Source of the DNA: Commensalibacter melissae
GTDB taxonomy: Bacteria > Pseudomonadota > Alphaproteobacteria > Acetobacterales > Acetobacteraceae
NCBI RefSeq assembly: GCF_003691365.1
Contig: NZ_CP033087.1
Location: 1,254,501 to 1,318,500 of the forward strand
Direction: 5' to 3'
DNA: 64,000 nucleotides
The position numbers and the translations under genes are program-made. This document shows, in pieces, positions 4,259 through 56,005 of the stretch; the stretch's first letter is position 1, and the number at the start of each line of letters is the position of its first letter. The notes under the pieces were generated by a model. It saw nothing but the letters and a program-made list of their open reading frames with translations. It was not told the DNA's origin and made no database searches.

Positions 4259-4594
4259 TTATCGAGACATCATGTTATAACTTGCATTATGCATTACGAA
4301 TAACGTTCCAAATACAATAACGATTGCTACGAAAAGCGAAAATGCATAACTTACCAAATCAACACGTTTTTCTGGAGACACACTGACATGCAAGAAAAAT
4401 ACTGACTGAACAATAATTTGTAATGCTGCCAATACCCCAAGCGTAGTTGCAGTAGCCATCGTTGAAAACATATGTTCCATAACGATATAAAAAGCAATTA
4501 CCGTAAGGATGATCGATAATACATACCCGACTATATAGGATGCTACAGAGCCGTGTCCTGCCTCTTCTGAGGCTGTAGTGTGATTTTCTGTCAT
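4259..4594 (-). CDS. cyoD: Cytochrome bo3 ubiquinol oxidase subunit IV
   Basis: A 111-residue subunit of the bo3 quinol oxidase with three predicted membrane helices (SYIVGYVLSIILTVIAFYIV, LGVLAALQIIVQSVFFLHV and a C-terminal segment around VAIVIVFGTLFVMH). The QSVFFLHV block is the CyoD signature. It assists assembly of the copper centre and quinol oxidase stability. Its ATG overlaps the cyoC stop by one base (TAATG), so translation is coupled. Last gene of cyoABCD before the terminator at 4171-4200. Confidence 0.95.
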   Translation of the reverse strand: MTENHTTASEEAGHGSVASYIVGYVLSIILTVIAFYIVMEHMFSTMATATTLGVLAALQIIVQSVFFLHVSVSPEKRVDLVSYAFSLFVAIVIVFGTLFVMHNASYNMMSR

Positions 4595-5214
4595 TATGCC
4601 ATACTCAACAGGTAAACGAAACTAAATACGCAAATCCAAACAATATCCAAGAAATGCCAAAATAAACTCATACAAGCCAATCTTGGCATCATTGTTTTGT
4701 TTAGACCCTTTGTTACCAATTGAATCATCAGAACCGTCATCCAAATCAGACCCAAAGTAACATGTAAGCCATGCGTTCCAACAAGTGTAAAGAATGCCGA
4801 CCAATAAGCGCTAACGGTTGGTGAGGCACCATGTTGAACAAAAGCGATAAACTCTTGAACTTCCAAAACAAGGAACCCTAAACCAAGAATGGCTGAAACC
4901 ACCATCCATAAAAGTGTTCCATTGTTACTGTTACGACGCGCCTGAATCATCGCGAAACCGAAGGTAAGTGAACTTGTCAACAGCAAGGCAGTTTCAATAG
5001 CCACTCGCCCCAGTTCAAACATTTCTTTACTGGTTGGACCACCAGCAAACTGATTTCTTAAAACCGCATAACTGGTAAATAAACACCCAAAGACAATGCA
5101 GTCCGACATCAAATACATCCAAAAGCCAAAGAATGAATGATTTTCATGCTCATGTTCGTGTTCATGAACATTTTGTGAAGTATTTGACATCGTTGTACTC
5201 ATATTCTCAGCCAT
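4594..5214 (-). CDS. cyoC: Cytochrome bo3 ubiquinol oxidase subunit III
   Basis: A 206-residue, five-helix subunit III of the heme-copper oxidase. The FGFWMYLMSDCIVFG motif opens the first helix, and THGLHVTLGLIWM and FWHFLDIVWICVFS are the conserved COX3 segments. A His/Glu-alternating stretch (HEHEHEHENH) precedes the first helix; His-rich N-termini are common in CyoC. No heme or copper is bound here; subunit III stabilises the complex. Its start overlaps the cyoB stop by one base. Confidence 0.96.
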   Translation of the reverse strand: MAENMSTTMSNTSQNVHEHEHEHENHSFFGFWMYLMSDCIVFGCLFTSYAVLRNQFAGGPTSKEMFELGRVAIETALLLTSSLTFGFAMIQARRNSNNGTLLWMVVSAILGLGFLVLEVQEFIAFVQHGASPTVSAYWSAFFTLVGTHGLHVTLGLIWMTVLMIQLVTKGLNKTMMPRLACMSLFWHFLDIVWICVFSFVYLLSMA

Positions 5215-7202
5215 TATTCAGCCACCTGTGTCATAAGTTTACGAGAATGTTCTTTTTCAATACGTTCAACTTCTGAAGCAGGAATGACATATTCTTTATC
5301 ATCTTTAAAGCTATAGCCAATAGCTAATACAAAATTAAGAATTACGGTAACAATCACAAGCCACCAGATATGCCAAACTGCCGCAAATCCCAGAACCAAT
5401 GCAAACATGCCATGCCAAAAACCTGCAGACGTGTTTTTAGGCATAAGAATATCCTTATAGGTTTCAGACGTACGACGTGTATCAATTCCATGCTCTTTAT
5501 TATATGCATAAGCATCACGTGATTGAACAACTGGAATATGAGCAAAGTTATAAACAGGAGCTGGAGAAGAAGTTGACCATTCAAGACTACGACCATCCCA
5601 TGGATCACCCGTTACATCAATATTTTCAGGTTTTTTCGCGTTAATAATACCAAGGAAAATCTGTAATAATTGGCAAACAACACCACAAAGGATACAAAAT
5701 ACACCAACACAGGCAATCTGTAACCAGAAATGCCAATTGGGATTGTCATAATGATTCAAACGACGAACCATTCCATCAAATCCGGTAATGTATAATGGAA
5801 CAAATGAAAGGAAAAATCCAAAGAACCAGAAAAAGAATGCGGCCTTACCAAGTTTCTGACTCATCTTGAAACCGGTTACTTTTGGAGCCCAAAAATTCAT
5901 CCCCGCGACATAACCAAAATAAACACCACCAATAATAGTATTATGGAAGTGAGCAATCAAGAATTCACTATTATGCAAAACGAAGTCACTGGCTGGAATT
6001 GCCAGCATAACCCCGGTCATACCACCAATAACGAAAACAATCATAAATCCGATTGTCCAATACATTGGTGCAGTAAATTCGATACGTCCTCTAAACATGG
6101 TAAAGAGCCAGTTAAAGACCTTAACTCCTGTTGGGATGGCAATGATCATCGTCATGATACCAAAAAAGGTATTAACATTTGCTCCGGCACCCATTGTAAA
6201 GAAGTGGTGAACCCAAACCAGCAAGGACAAGGTCGTAATCGCCAAACTTGCATAAACCATTGTTGCATAACCGAATAATGGTTTTTTGCAAAATACAGGA
6301 ACAACTTCCGAGAAAACACCAAAGGCAGGAATTACAAGAATGTAAACTTCAGGATGTCCCCATGCCCAGATCAGATTCAAATACAACATTACATTTCCAC
6401 CACCATCATTGGTAAAGAAATGCATTCCACAATAACGATCCAGTGCCAATTCAGCCACAGCCACTGTCAAGGCAGGGAATGTCGTAAAAATCATGATACA
6501 AGATGCAATAACAGTCCATGTGAAAACAGGAATACGCATCCATGTCATTCCTGGGGCACGCATTTTGACAACTGTAGTTATAAAGTTAACAGCAGTCAAA
6601 AGCGTTCCAACACCGGAAATCTGAACAGCCCAGATATAATAGTCTACCCCTACGCCAGGACTGAACTGCAATTCAGAAACAGGTGGATAGGCCAACCAAC
6701 CAGCAGTCGAGAAATCACCAATAAACAAAGAGATGTTAACTAGTATAGCACCAGCAGTCGTTAACCAAAAACTTAATGAGTTGATAAATGGAAAAGCGAC
6801 GTCACGAGCACCAATCTGCAAAGGAACGATAAGGTTAAATAGACCCTGCATAAATGCCATGGCCATGAAGAAAATCATGATTGTACCATGAGCAGTGAAA
6901 ATTTGGTCATAATGCGATGGAGGCAGGTAACCAGGACTATTATAAGCCATGGCCTGTTGCAGACGCATCATGATAGCATCCGCAAATCCACGGAATAACA
7001 TAACAAGTGCAAGCACGATGTACATTATACCGATACGCTTGTGATCAACCGAGAAAAGCCAGTTTCTGAACAATACACCCCATTTACCATAGTATGTGAT
7101 CGCTCCTAAAACAGCCAATCCAACAATAACTACCCCAATAAATGTCCCTACCAATATAGGTACATGATATGGAATAGCCGAAAGACTTAATTTACCTAAC
7201 AT
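5214..7202 (-). CDS. cyoB: Cytochrome bo3 ubiquinol oxidase subunit I
   Basis: Catalytic subunit (662 residues) that reduces O2 with ubiquinol electrons and pumps protons at the inner membrane. All metal ligands are present: helix [13 protein letters not shown] (low-spin heme), helix [17 protein letters not shown] (Cu(B) His and cross-link Tyr), helix [12 protein letters not shown] (Cu(B) pair) and helix [12 protein letters not shown] (heme o3 and heme b). It has the extra N- and C-terminal helices of the bo3 type. SD AGAGGA precedes the ATG and lies inside the end of cyoA. It is a useful contrast to the degraded COX1 homologue at 53967-55298. Confidence 0.98.
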
Positions 7203-7206
7203 TTAT

Positions 7207-8145
7207 CTATTCCTCTGCGTGCTTCATTTCACCAGATTGACTTGAGCTCATATGAATCATTTGCCCAGTAGCTTTATCCATAACCATACCATTGTTATAT
7301 TTTGCTATGATTGTATCGAATAAAACCGGTTCAACATGAGCATAGTATTCAACTGGATTTTTAATACTATCTTCATGCAATTTAGCATATGTTTCATTAT
7401 TCAAGTCTTGAGAAGACGCACGAACTTTTTCAATCCAGTCCTGAAATCCCTTTTCATCTTTAACCAATGTACGGAATCTCATATCTGAATATCCAGCACC
7501 ACTGTAATTATTGGTTTCCCCCAAATAATCACCTTCTGTAGAAGCCAATAAATGCAATTGAGTTTGCATACCAGCCATTACATAGACTTGTGACCCTAGC
7601 TGCGGAATCCAAAAAGAGTTCATTGTCGCATCGGACGTTAATCGGAAGGAAACTGGTGTATTAACAGGTACTACCAATTGATTAACTGTGGCTATACCAT
7701 ATTCAGGATAAATAAATAACCATTTCCAGTTTAACGCAACAACCTGAACATCAATTGGTTTGACTTGTGGATTATCAGCAGGTGCAGCGATTGGTTTATA
7801 AGGATCCAATTCATGAGATGAAACAAATGTTTTATATGCAAGAAAAGCAATCAAACACATTGGAATTCCCCACATACATATTTCAATCGGAAGTGAGAAA
7901 TCCCATTTTGGTGAATATGTTGCACTGGTATTTGATGCACGATAACGTCTTGCAATAATTAAGGTTGCAATAATAACGGGAATAACAACGCAAAGCATTG
8001 CCCCTACCGTCATCATAATCAATTCTTTCTCACTTTGTCCTATCGGTCCTTTTGGATCAAATAAAACCAAGTTACATCCACCCAACATAAGAGTAGATGT
8101 TAAACCCACTACCGATAATGTAATTTTCGGTAATAATTTTTTCAT
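7207..8145 (-). CDS. cyoA: Cytochrome bo3 ubiquinol oxidase subunit II (lipoprotein)
   Basis: Subunit II, two membrane helices plus a periplasmic cupredoxin domain without Cu(A), as in quinol oxidases. I place the start at 8145 (312 residues) rather than at the ATG at 8169. A GAGG SD lies 6 bases upstream, and the protein then begins directly with a lipoprotein signal (MKKLLPKITL...LMLGGC, lipobox Cys24). The longer form would add eight polar residues before the signal. The cupredoxin segment TMNSFWIPQLGSQVYVMAGM is conserved. First gene of cyoABCD. Confidence 0.95.
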   Translation of the reverse strand: MKKLLPKITLSVVGLTSTLMLGGCNLVLFDPKGPIGQSEKELIMMTVGAMLCVVIPVIIATLIIARRYRASNTSATYSPKWDFSLPIEICMWGIPMCLIAFLAYKTFVSSHELDPYKPIAAPADNPQVKPIDVQVVALNWKWLFIYPEYGIATVNQLVVPVNTPVSFRLTSDATMNSFWIPQLGSQVYVMAGMQTQLHLLASTEGDYLGETNNYSGAGYSDMRFRTLVKDEKGFQDWIEKVRASSQDLNNETYAKLHEDSIKNPVEYYAHVEPVLFDTIIAKYNNGMVMDKATGQMIHMSSSQSGEMKHAEE

Positions 8146-8169
8146 TCTATGCCTCGTTGATTCTGACAT

Positions 8170-53004: not shown

Positions 53005-53970
53005 TTAGACACCCCATAAATCATAAATATAATGATCTATAATCAAGGCTAAAAATAAAAAGAAGAGATAAATCAAAGAAAAACGAAAAGACCATCTTGC
53101 CGCTTTATCACTTCTTAAACTTTTTCCTGAATGATCCTGTTTTTCAAGTAAAACACAAATGGCCATAAACATAAATCCAACATTCAATATCAACGCTGTC
53201 ACCATATAGACGCTATGCGTGAAATGAAAATACACAGGCAATAAACTGACAATGGCCAACAAAATAGTATATATGAAAATCTGCCACCGTGTATGTCTGG
53301 CCCCTTTCACAACTGGAAGCATGGGAATACCAGCCCGTCCATAATCCTTGCAAGCATATAGGGATAAAGACCAAAAATGGGGAGGTGTCCAGAAAAAAAC
53401 AATCAAAAACAGTATTATTGGGAATAATTGGATCTGTCCAGTTACACTTATCCAACCTATCAAGGGAGGAAAAGCACCCGCTGCCCCACCAATAACAATA
53501 TTTTGCGGGGTTGATCTTTTTAACCAAACTGTATAAATCACACTATAATAAAATATTGAAAACGCCAGTATAAAACTTGCAAAAAAATTTGTAGCCAGAA
53601 ACATAAGGATGACAGAGATAATGGATACAGTTACCCCATAAATCAAAGCATCTGAAGATTGAACCCTCCCCGAGGGCAAAGGACGGGTTATAGTCCTGTT
53701 CATAACACGATCAATATCCTGATCGTACCACATGTTAATGGCACCAGCACCTCCTGACGCAAGACAAATACAAATAATACTTATCAAAGAAATAAAAGGG
53801 TTTGCATATCCAGGTGCCAAAATAATGCCGACAATTCCTGTAAAAACAACCAAAGAAATAACCCTCGGTTTTAACAGAAGGAACCAATCCCTGACATTGC
53901 TTCCAACAATTAGTGGGTTGAAGCGTATACGCTGGTTGACAGCATTATTCTCAATCTGAATTTTACTCAT
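53005..53970 (-). CDS. ctaB: Protoheme IX farnesyltransferase (heme O synthase)
   Basis: A UbiA-family prenyltransferase (about 321 residues) that farnesylates heme B to heme O, the heme needed by the bo3 oxidase encoded at 4259-8145. The first Asp-rich motif is NMWYDQDIDRVMNRT, followed by RPLPSGRV; the second, in HFWSLSLYACKDYGRAGIPMLPV, is also present. I start at ATG 53970, which overlaps the upstream COX1-like stop by 4 bases (ATGA) and gives MSKIQIEN; a start at 54015 would intrude 49 bases into that gene. Also called cyoE. Confidence 0.94.
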   Translation of the reverse strand: MSKIQIENNAVNQRIRFNPLIVGSNVRDWFLLLKPRVISLVVFTGIVGIILAPGYANPFISLISIICICLASGGAGAINMWYDQDIDRVMNRTITRPLPSGRVQSSDALIYGVTVSIISVILMFLATNFFASFILAFSIFYYSVIYTVWLKRSTPQNIVIGGAAGAFPPLIGWISVTGQIQLFPIILFLIVFFWTPPHFWSLSLYACKDYGRAGIPMLPVVKGARHTRWQIFIYTILLAIVSLLPVYFHFTHSVYMVTALILNVGFMFMAICVLLEKQDHSGKSLRSDKAARWSFRFSLIYLFFLFLALIIDHYIYDLWGV

Positions 53971-55298
53971 CTGTTTTGCTTGTTTGCAGTAAACATGGGA
54001 GAAGGCAATTTCCATTCATTCGTGATTGCACCTTTACCCCAATAATTGGCTACAGGTTTAACCACGTTATAAAATATGGCATTGATAATCACACCCTGAA
54101 AAACAAATATGGATAGTCCCATAAATATGTCACCCCAAAAAACTGTGTTTCTACCTAATGGGATTATTTTCAATGTCAGAACAATTCCAATCATTGTAAT
54201 TACAAAATGTGAAATTCCCAATGATTCTGAATATTGTTTTCCAAAAATTTTACCCATCCAAAAATAAAACCCTGCAAAAATTGATAATATAATTGCATAA
54301 GTTAGAGTTGAATGAATCTGATTTATTCCTTGAATTAATCCTTTATATGGCCAGGCAAAAAGTAAAAGGAACAAGCAGCCCAACGACCATAGCATAGGCG
54401 TTGATATGTTTTTTAAGCCTGTTTTAAACAATTTCAATGCAAAAATACTTAAAACACATATCAATCCATATAAACCAACAGCAAATATAGTTTCGATGTT
54501 CGCAAATGAATCTGTCTGAAAGTAGATTTCTGTAAATATGGATTTATTCCAAAATAAAAATAATAGAAGAGAGAATGCTGTTGTAATACCAATTAATAAA
54601 ATTTTATCCGATTTGATTTTCTTTTCTGATATTGTCTGAAAAATATGAAATAAGATACCAAAAGATGGCAAGATTAAAACTACAACCATGGGAAAAACGA
54701 AATTTTTAACAGTTTGTGAAATCGCCCAATCCAACTGCATATTATAATTGAAATAATCTCGTGTTAATATCCCCAATAATATTGATCCCACTCCCAATAA
54801 AAAACTCGCACTTATAACATGCATCCAGGCAAATAGGGGAATTGAGTAATATTTAATATCCTGCCCACGATTATTAATAAAAGTAACAAGGACATTAATT
54901 GAAAATAAAACCGAACCAATTGACCAAAATACCAGGCTTATCAAGCTCATCAATCCAGTTTCTGAATTAAAAAAGGAAAAAAAATTAAAGAAAAATCCTG
55001 TCCATAATAAAATGATTGAAAGGATATTGATTAATGGAAACGCAAAATTTCTGCTTCCAATTAAAACAGGAAAGAACCATGAACCGAAGGCTACCATTAA
55101 TGCTGGCTGTAAGACAAAAAAAACCATCATTCTGGCATGAGTCTGGAAAATGTTAATAGCAGCAGTTTGGTCATGAATTTGAAATAATAAAGGTAGAAAT
55201 TCATTCAGTTGGTAATATAAAGCGGTGATCCCTCCACTTAATCCTGCCAAGATAGCCAAAATAATGGCACTCATTCCTACTTTATAATTGATTCTCAT
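53967..55298 (-). CDS. Heme-copper oxidase subunit I homologue lacking the binuclear centre
   Basis: A 443-residue, 12-helix protein that follows COX1 throughout: helix I VGMSAIILAILAGLSGG, helix II QTHARMMVFFVLQPALM, helix X/XI IFAGFYFWMGKIFGKQY. Both low-spin heme histidines remain (His54 in helix II, His329 in helix X). All high-spin/Cu(B) ligands are replaced: the GHPEVY His and Tyr become Phe202 and Val206 (Pro203 kept), the WAHH pair becomes WNKS (252-253), and the first His of HFH becomes Gln327. It cannot reduce O2 the usual way. The ORF is intact and translationally coupled to ctaB, occupying the position of ctaD. It may be a one-heme membrane protein with a new role. Confidence 0.85.
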   Translation of the reverse strand: MRINYKVGMSAIILAILAGLSGGITALYYQLNEFLPLLFQIHDQTAAINIFQTHARMMVFFVLQPALMVAFGSWFFPVLIGSRNFAFPLINILSIILLWTGFFFNFFSFFNSETGLMSLISLVFWSIGSVLFSINVLVTFINNRGQDIKYYSIPLFAWMHVISASFLLGVGSILLGILTRDYFNYNMQLDWAISQTVKNFVFPMVVVLILPSFGILFHIFQTISEKKIKSDKILLIGITTAFSLLLFLFWNKSIFTEIYFQTDSFANIETIFAVGLYGLICVLSIFALKLFKTGLKNISTPMLWSLGCLFLLLFAWPYKGLIQGINQIHSTLTYAIILSIFAGFYFWMGKIFGKQYSESLGISHFVITMIGIVLTLKIIPLGRNTVFWGDIFMGLSIFVFQGVIINAIFYNVVKPVANYWGKGAITNEWKLPSPMFTANKQNR

Positions 55299-55336: not shown

Positions 55337-56005
55337 CTATCTTTCAAAACTAACCAAAGTAAATAATCCTAAAGGCGGAACCGAATTTACTTCAGCCCTT
55401 TTTAACACTTCTGGTGGTAACAAGGACTGAATGGCAAAATCGGGATGCCAACCCAATGCCTTGGAGGCAGGAGCCATAATTCGTTCAACATATGACCGGA
55501 GTCCTTTTTGAGCTATAAAATGATTCACAAAAAGAATATGCCCACCAGGCTTCACTACACGTTGTAATTCCTTAAACAATCGGTCTGGATGAGGCACAAC
55601 CGAGGCAACAAACATGCCGACCGCAATGTCAAAAGAATCCGTTTCAAAAGTCGTTGCTTCAGCATCCATTTCCAACAATGCATCAACATTATCGATTTTT
55701 TCTTTTTTCACACGCTGTTTGGCCTTTTCCAGCATATCGGTTGAAAGGTCAATACCCGTCACTCTTTTATCATTATGATAAGAAGGTAAAGCCAGGCCAG
55801 TTCCGACACCCACCTCTAATATTTTTTTCCCCGGTAAAGAATTAACCTTTTCAACGGCACATCGTCGGCCAAATGAAGAAACTGTACCAAAAACAGTATC
55901 ATAAACCTTGGCCCAGCGACGATAGGCAAGCTTAACTGCATCTGCATTTAAGGCAGTATGAGGTAAAGGAGACACGCTATTGCTCCAAATTTGGTGAAAT
56001 AACAA
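55337..56005 (-). CDS. pmtA: Phosphatidylethanolamine N-methyltransferase (PmtA type)
   Basis: A 222-residue soluble class I SAM methyltransferase. The Rhodobacter-type PmtA signature is clear: YRRWAKVYDTVFGTVSSFGR, then the SAM motif ILEVGVGTGLALPSY, GIDLSTDMLEKAKQR and the post-core GGHILFVNHF. It makes phosphatidylcholine by three methylations of phosphatidylethanolamine, a pathway known from acetic acid bacteria. It lies upstream of the COX1-like gene (38 bases), where ctaC would be in a full cta locus. Confidence 0.85.
   Translation of the reverse strand: MLFHQIWSNSVSPLPHTALNADAVKLAYRRWAKVYDTVFGTVSSFGRRCAVEKVNSLPGKKILEVGVGTGLALPSYHNDKRVTGIDLSTDMLEKAKQRVKKEKIDNVDALLEMDAEATTFETDSFDIAVGMFVASVVPHPDRLFKELQRVVKPGGHILFVNHFIAQKGLRSYVERIMAPASKALGWHPDFAIQSLLPPEVLKRAEVNSVPPLGLFTLVSFER

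Follow-up and report, generated by a model that had tools for sequence, protein, structure and literature searches.

COX1L (COX1-like single-heme-site protein), a homologue of heme-copper oxidase subunit I that has lost the residues of O2 chemistry and keeps the ligand pair of one low-spin heme, is encoded directly before the heme O synthase gene ctaB in Commensalibacter melissae and in relatives in the Acetobacteraceae, where it is under purifying selection. Since COX1L keeps the second heme site of its parent enzyme and adjoins ctaB, it probably handles the special heme made by the product of that gene. We consider the chance somewhat better than even that COX1L is a single-heme membrane partner of CtaB, which accepts, parks or hands on heme O (or heme b) for the bo3 quinol oxidase.

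The COX1L gene and its predicted fold

The window analysed here is a stretch of 64,000 nucleotides from the 2.02-Mb genome of C. melissae. COX1L occupies an intact minus-strand frame of 443 codons (Table 1), and the plus strand in the same register contains many stops. A Pfam search matched residues 6-376 to COX1 (E 8.8e-28), which was the sole family found at E up to 1; no match to DUF420 (CtaM family) was obtained at this threshold. The score of COX1L against the NCBIfam cytochrome c oxidase subunit I model was 98.8 bits, far under the curated cut-off of 670.75. An AlphaFold2 model, built from a 15-row alignment, contained 12 long membrane-type helices (mean pLDDT 82.7, pTM 0.86), and the overlay on COX1 that the original prediction had proposed as a check gave a Z of 37.1 and an rmsd of 3.4 against Paracoccus COX1 (1ar1_A). 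Because the two align over 429 residues, COX1L is predicted to have the full 12-helix COX1 fold with shortened loops. The description of the gene product as a 443-residue, 12-helix COX1 homologue was thus borne out.

Table 1 Features of the COX1L locus and the presumed heme O consumer (positions in the window)
Feature	Position	Strand	Basis
COX1L, 443 aa	53967..55298	(-)	ORF, Pfam, alignments, AlphaFold2 model
Codon of H54, low-spin heme ligand, helix II, kept	55137..55139	(-)	Alignments; coordinates computed from frame
Codon of H329, low-spin heme ligand, helix X, kept	54312..54314	(-)	Alignments
Codon of F202, replaces first CuB His	54693..54695	(-)	Alignments
Codon of V206, replaces cross-link Tyr	54681..54683	(-)	Alignments
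Codons of K252-S253, replace CuB His pair	54540..54545	(-)	Alignments
Codon of Q327, replaces high-spin heme His	54318..54320	(-)	Alignments
ctaB, heme O synthase, from Met16 of longest ORF	53005..53970	(-)	NCBIfam TIGR01473, 324.9 bits (cut-off 210.3)
ATGA, possible ctaB start overlapping COX1L stop	53967..53970	(-)	Translational coupling inferred
PmtA-like phospholipid N-methyltransferase, upstream neighbour	55337..56005	(-)	Best NCBIfam model PmtA, 162.8 bits (below cut-off 390)
cyoABCD, bo3 quinol oxidase, presumed heme O consumer	4259..8169	(-)	

When ctaB is read from Met16, its start forms the ATGA overlap at 53970-53967, while the longest ORF overlaps COX1L by 49 bp. No subunit II gene lies beside COX1L, whose neighbours are pmtA and ctaB, and CyoA was the only COX2-family match in the source genome. 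The gene of heme A synthase (CtaA) is present in this genome. Its heme A may enter the quinol oxidase, as a passage of PMC6915089 suggests for the ba3 oxidase of Acetobacter pasteurianus.

Ligand retention and loss in the Acetobacteraceae

The original prediction had called F202, V206, K252-S253 and Q327 as losses and H54 and H329 as retained low-spin ligands, and these calls held in several alignments. The window protein has further lost the K-channel Lys, the Mg-site His and, by deletion, the loop with arginines that we take to be heme propionate contacts. Every tested residue of O2 chemistry is therefore gone together with the K-channel Lys, and the low-spin pair remains. COX1L is like CtaD/COX1 of the A family in its homology, its predicted 12-helix fold, its low-spin histidines on helices II and X and its place before ctaB; it differs in lacking CuB and its histidines, the cross-link Tyr, the high-spin His, the K-channel and Mg-site residues, the propionate loop and a subunit II partner in the neighbourhood.

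Relatives were collected by a sweep through 397 Acetobacteraceae genomes. After 27 identical copies had been removed from 150 ORFs, 123 distinct COX1-family ORFs were left: 24 had all six His (23 aa3-like sequences and the organism's own CyoB), and 99, including the window protein, did not. At the position of H329, His was found in 99/99 of these COX1L members, and at that of H54 in 98/99; with three extra divergent members, which have both low-spin His, the counts became 102/102 and 101/102. By contrast, neither the first CuB His nor the cross-link Tyr occurred in any of the 99 aligned members. Since the low-spin histidines are kept in 98 and 99 members against none for these two residues, their retention, as judged from the alignment, exceeds chance. 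At the other positions, the high-spin heme His was found in 2/99, the second CuB His in 45/99, the third in 10/99 and the K-channel Lys in 0/99 members. The Mg-site His and the propionate Arg loop were deleted in all 99, the helix X Ser was mostly lost, and the helix I Arg was kept in only 11. In a conservation ranking of the 386 columns with 80% occupancy, six were kept in at least 99% of the rows, namely W158, W250, H329, Y345, W347 and H54. The search for the same ligand losses in related Acetobacteraceae that the original prediction had suggested thus showed loss of the first CuB His and of the Tyr throughout, with the other ligands lost to varying degrees. Orthologues with intact ligands, which it had named as counter-evidence, did not occur in the COX1L clade (99 sequences).

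L148, the only member that lacks the helix II His, comes from genome G367, which is 85% complete; it has an arginine-rich N-terminus and looks frameshifted there, through either a sequencing error or a recent loss. In G016, a COX1L cut by a contig end seemingly has the helix II His; it stands outside all His counts.

The gene order was equally constant. ctaB lay directly 3' of COX1L in 99/99 loci and in the three extra loci (102/102), and a PmtA-like methyltransferase on the same strand flanked the upstream side in all 99 loci and likewise in the three extra ones. The nearest possible ctaB start formed a four-base overlap with the COX1L stop in 57/99 loci and lay within 30 bp in 98/99; these counts are an upper view of coupling, since the nearest ATG, GTG or TTG was taken as the start. 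COX1L and ctaB may well be translationally coupled.

The original prediction knew of no described function for such a protein, which was not supported: a 'deranged COX1-like' protein encoded beside ctaB in Acetobacter has been published, with a proposed structural role (Degli Esposti 2023, citing Matsutani 2014; a passage of PMC10715153). The 'ctaD' APT_01775 of A. pasteurianus SKU1108, mentioned in PMC5158111, is likewise a gene of this kind at this place next to ctaB; like COX1L, these genes stem from a lost cytochrome c oxidase. COX1L fits the description of an Acetobacteraceae COX1 relic clustered with ctaB, as judged by the 397-genome sweep, the gene order and the tree given below. The published gene, however, is said in that passage of PMC10715153 to lack all metal-binding residues, a wording that is too strong for the members examined here, which do not show such total loss. 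Within the open-licence PMC literature, outside which Matsutani 2014 lies, neither a tested function nor the retained low-spin His of COX1L was found; the gene is already known, and none of the texts consulted there describes a retained heme site that is under selection across the family.

Origin, selection and distribution

A single origin of COX1L by descent from aa3-type subunit I (CtaD) is indicated by the sequences. In a CyoB-rooted tree that joined 48 COX1L representatives with 24 intact sequences, made with a quick method, containing long branches and leaving out L148, COX1L was monophyletic (SH-aLRT 100) and lay within aa3 CtaD, closest to sequences from the Acetobacteraceae. In two genomes (G033 and G019), pmtA, coxB and coxA are consecutive on one strand; because of this row, the order pmtA-COX1L-ctaB looks like a cox operon minus coxB and the genes beyond ctaB. 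A passage of PMC6915089, which also names a ba3 quinol oxidase, regards ctaB and ctaA as still functional remnants of the cox cluster. Two loci were examined among at least 80 CtaB matches: that of Komagataeibacter xylinus (L154) has a COX1L with both low-spin His beside ctaB, and that of an Asaia bogorensis MAG has an intact aa3-type COX1.

COX1L is under clear purifying selection, yet it evolves faster than ctaB. For 29 independent pairs with dS of 0.05-2, each trimmed by its first 30 aligned codons and none of them including L148, the median dN/dS of COX1L was 0.11 (range 0.06-0.30), compared with 0.03 for ctaB at the same loci; 2/31 pairs outside this dS range, with ratios of 0.316 and 0.069, were dropped. 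The constraint on COX1L is thus several times below that on ctaB, and the mean corrected distance was 1.9 for COX1L vs 0.39 for CtaB. The relaxed ratio near 1 that the original prediction had named as evidence against it was therefore not observed, and its claim that selection maintains a single-site bis-His protein beside ctaB is upheld by this ratio and by the pattern of ligand retention. Among the 48 representatives without L148, COX1L distances had a partial r of 0.60 with those of CtaB (PmtA removed) and of 0.05 with those of PmtA (CtaB removed); the P of 0.001 in this covariation test ignores phylogeny and is supportive only.

By our reading of the sweep and of follow-up comparisons, COX1L was carried by 104/397 genomes of the family, belonging to 20 genus codes. 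In a panel of 61 genomes chosen by us, all 52 carriers had ctaB above the cut-off and a CyoB-sized COX1-family gene, and CtaA was present in 28/52 and absent from 24/52. At least four carriers (G106, G119, G234 and G427) have an extra COX1-family frame of 544-577 aa, the usual aa3 size, so COX1L is not confined to genomes without such a gene. In five carriers (G039, G164, G374, G204 and G246), Pfam COX1 gave only one match, of CyoB size, and a profile built from COX1L found COX1L; Pfam-based surveys can therefore undercount it.

Five genomes of 1.7-2.1 Mb (G036, G162, G112, G116 and G255; loci L240-L244) showed no COX1L match, no ctaB above the cut-off and no CyoB-sized gene. A recognisably related locus with partly kept flanking gene order was found in these genomes, and pmtA was present in all of them. 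Three had only a COX1-family frame of 785-833 aa, the size of a nitric oxide reductase, and two had none. G255 and G116 retain the genes that flank the gap on either side and hence lack just COX1L and ctaB there; pmbA was not found in G112, and pmbA and a 356-aa gene were not found in G036 and G162. A functional link between COX1L and pmtA is weakened, since pmtA survives without COX1L and ctaB and its divergence is uncorrelated with that of COX1L once CtaB is removed.

Two further genomes keep ctaB without COX1L. In G008 (L237), pmtA adjoins ctaB and there are two CyoB-sized genes; in G224 (L245), pmtA adjoins ctaB with no COX1-type gene between them. CtaB therefore does not need COX1L everywhere, and a general requirement of CtaB for COX1L was rejected. 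The CtaB of G008 sits on a long branch that is sister to the clade of COX1L carriers (support 87), for which reason the loss in G008 may have taken the oxidase pair as a whole, and not COX1L at a later time. The two genomes are a natural test case for the needs of CtaB.

Possible role beside CtaB

The mechanism that we propose starts from an ancestral aa3 subunit I, of which a 12-helix protein with a single low-spin bis-His site would be left. COX1L would then work with CtaB, presumably in contact with it, and would accept, park or pass a farnesylated heme (heme O, possibly heme b), which would be delivered to CyoB of the bo3 quinol oxidase. The more specific idea that aa3 subunit I was retained after oxidase loss as a decoy, taking heme O from CtaB via the low-spin site to bo3, is tentative and has, in our estimate, somewhat less than an even chance. 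Heme binding itself is suggested by the ligands and the predicted fold. Since the parental pocket has lost the propionate loop and, in most members, the helix X Ser, the heme may sit unlike in COX1. Because so few members have the helix I Arg, which presumably contacts the formyl group of heme A, heme A does not appear to be a needed cofactor; this scarcity and the general loss of the propionate loop argue against heme A and for a changed pocket. A heme A role was set aside, as CtaA is absent from 24/52 carriers.

Beyond the retained low-spin His, the single origin, the purifying selection and the place before ctaB, several observations support COX1L as a heme partner of CtaB: the joint absence of COX1L, ctaB and bo3-type genes from five genomes that keep pmtA, the divergence of COX1L, which tracks CtaB and not PmtA, and the maintenance of COX1L in carriers with or without heme A synthase, all 52 of which have ctaB and a CyoB-sized gene. 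According to a section of PMC9145763, the low-spin heme site is the one filled first in the parent enzyme. Other points are against it. COX1L is less constrained than ctaB by several-fold, and its adjacency to ctaB means that one deletion could remove both without any functional link. E. coli bo3 has no known assembly protein except heme O synthase, as stated in a passage of PMC9145763, and the summary in PMC10715153 has all ligands missing from the COX1-like protein. Among the functions suggested in the original prediction, the heme O partner for CtaB is the best one, given the ctaB adjacency and the retained site, and no evidence was obtained for a quinol role.

Part of these data would also suit a structural scaffold, in which COX1L only stabilises CtaB in the membrane and any low-spin heme is a folding cofactor. 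The adjacency to ctaB in 99/99 loci, the absence of COX1L together with ctaB and the covariation of their rates all favour such a scaffold, which has been proposed in print as a guess of Degli Esposti et al. 2023 (PMC10715153, in the passage on this gene). It does not, however, predict that two heme ligands would be among the six best-kept of 386 columns in a fast-changing protein, and G008 and G224 have ctaB without COX1L; on balance we regard it as doubtful, with a minority share of the probability. Two points speak for a b-type electron carrier or a quinol-linked cytochrome feeding or regulating bo3 or another membrane enzyme: the bis-His site of a COX1 fold serves electron transfer in the parent enzyme, and COX1L is absent where bo3-type genes are absent. 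Such a redox protein is nevertheless unlikely: the neighbours are pmtA and ctaB with no subunit II gene, the channel residues and the propionate loop are lost, and the constant place before ctaB would be unexplained.

The gene-order and site evidence for the heme-partner reading would serve as well for a sensor that binds surplus heme O and tunes the activity or turnover of CtaB by feedback; this sensor has no separate evidence, is indistinguishable from a chaperone here, and is in our view very unlikely. That COX1L is a decaying relic, hitchhiking between pmtA and ctaB via polar effects on ctaB translation, is scarcely credible. Its very fast divergence (1.9 vs 0.39 for CtaB), its derivation from a cox operon and the seemingly frameshifted L148 would fit such a relic, but the median dN/dS is 0.11, both His are kept while the catalytic ligands drift, and besides L148 no interrupted frame was found among 102 members. 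The original prediction had argued from the intact frame next to ctaB that simple decay is not the explanation; the dN/dS and the selective ligand retention agree with this, and simple decay was rejected.

Surf1 and CtaA are protein families other than COX1L, and CtaA differs further in being absent from 24/52 COX1L-positive genomes. Surf1 and the CtaA-CtaB complex resemble the proposed partner of CtaB in handling heme O or heme A next to CtaB, as described in part of PMC9145763. A precedent is CtaM (DUF420) of Staphylococcus and Bacillus, according to a passage of PMC4958251 a membrane protein adjacent to ctaB in S. aureus, which a quinol oxidase needs and for which a heme chaperone role has been proposed. 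It belongs to another Pfam family and has four or five helices (a passage of PMC9145763), so that the two have only the proposed role in common.

How heme O and heme A exit from their synthases and reach the oxidase is not understood, as a passage of PMC9145763 puts it. COX1L offers a natural case of a protein with a single heme site left, kept beside CtaB, and with natural absences for comparison; these carriers and absences make the question of heme transfer testable in culturable acetic acid bacteria. The present findings correct the statement of total metal-ligand loss in the part of PMC10715153 on this gene. They also warn against scoring COX1L as a cytochrome c oxidase, as may be the case for a table note in PMC4596401, in which 'another terminal oxidase, a cytochrome c oxidase' of Granulibacter and A. 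pasteurianus may be the COX1L gene. If the decoy idea is true, the core of an oxidase would have become a single-heme acceptor or chaperone dedicated to farnesylated heme.
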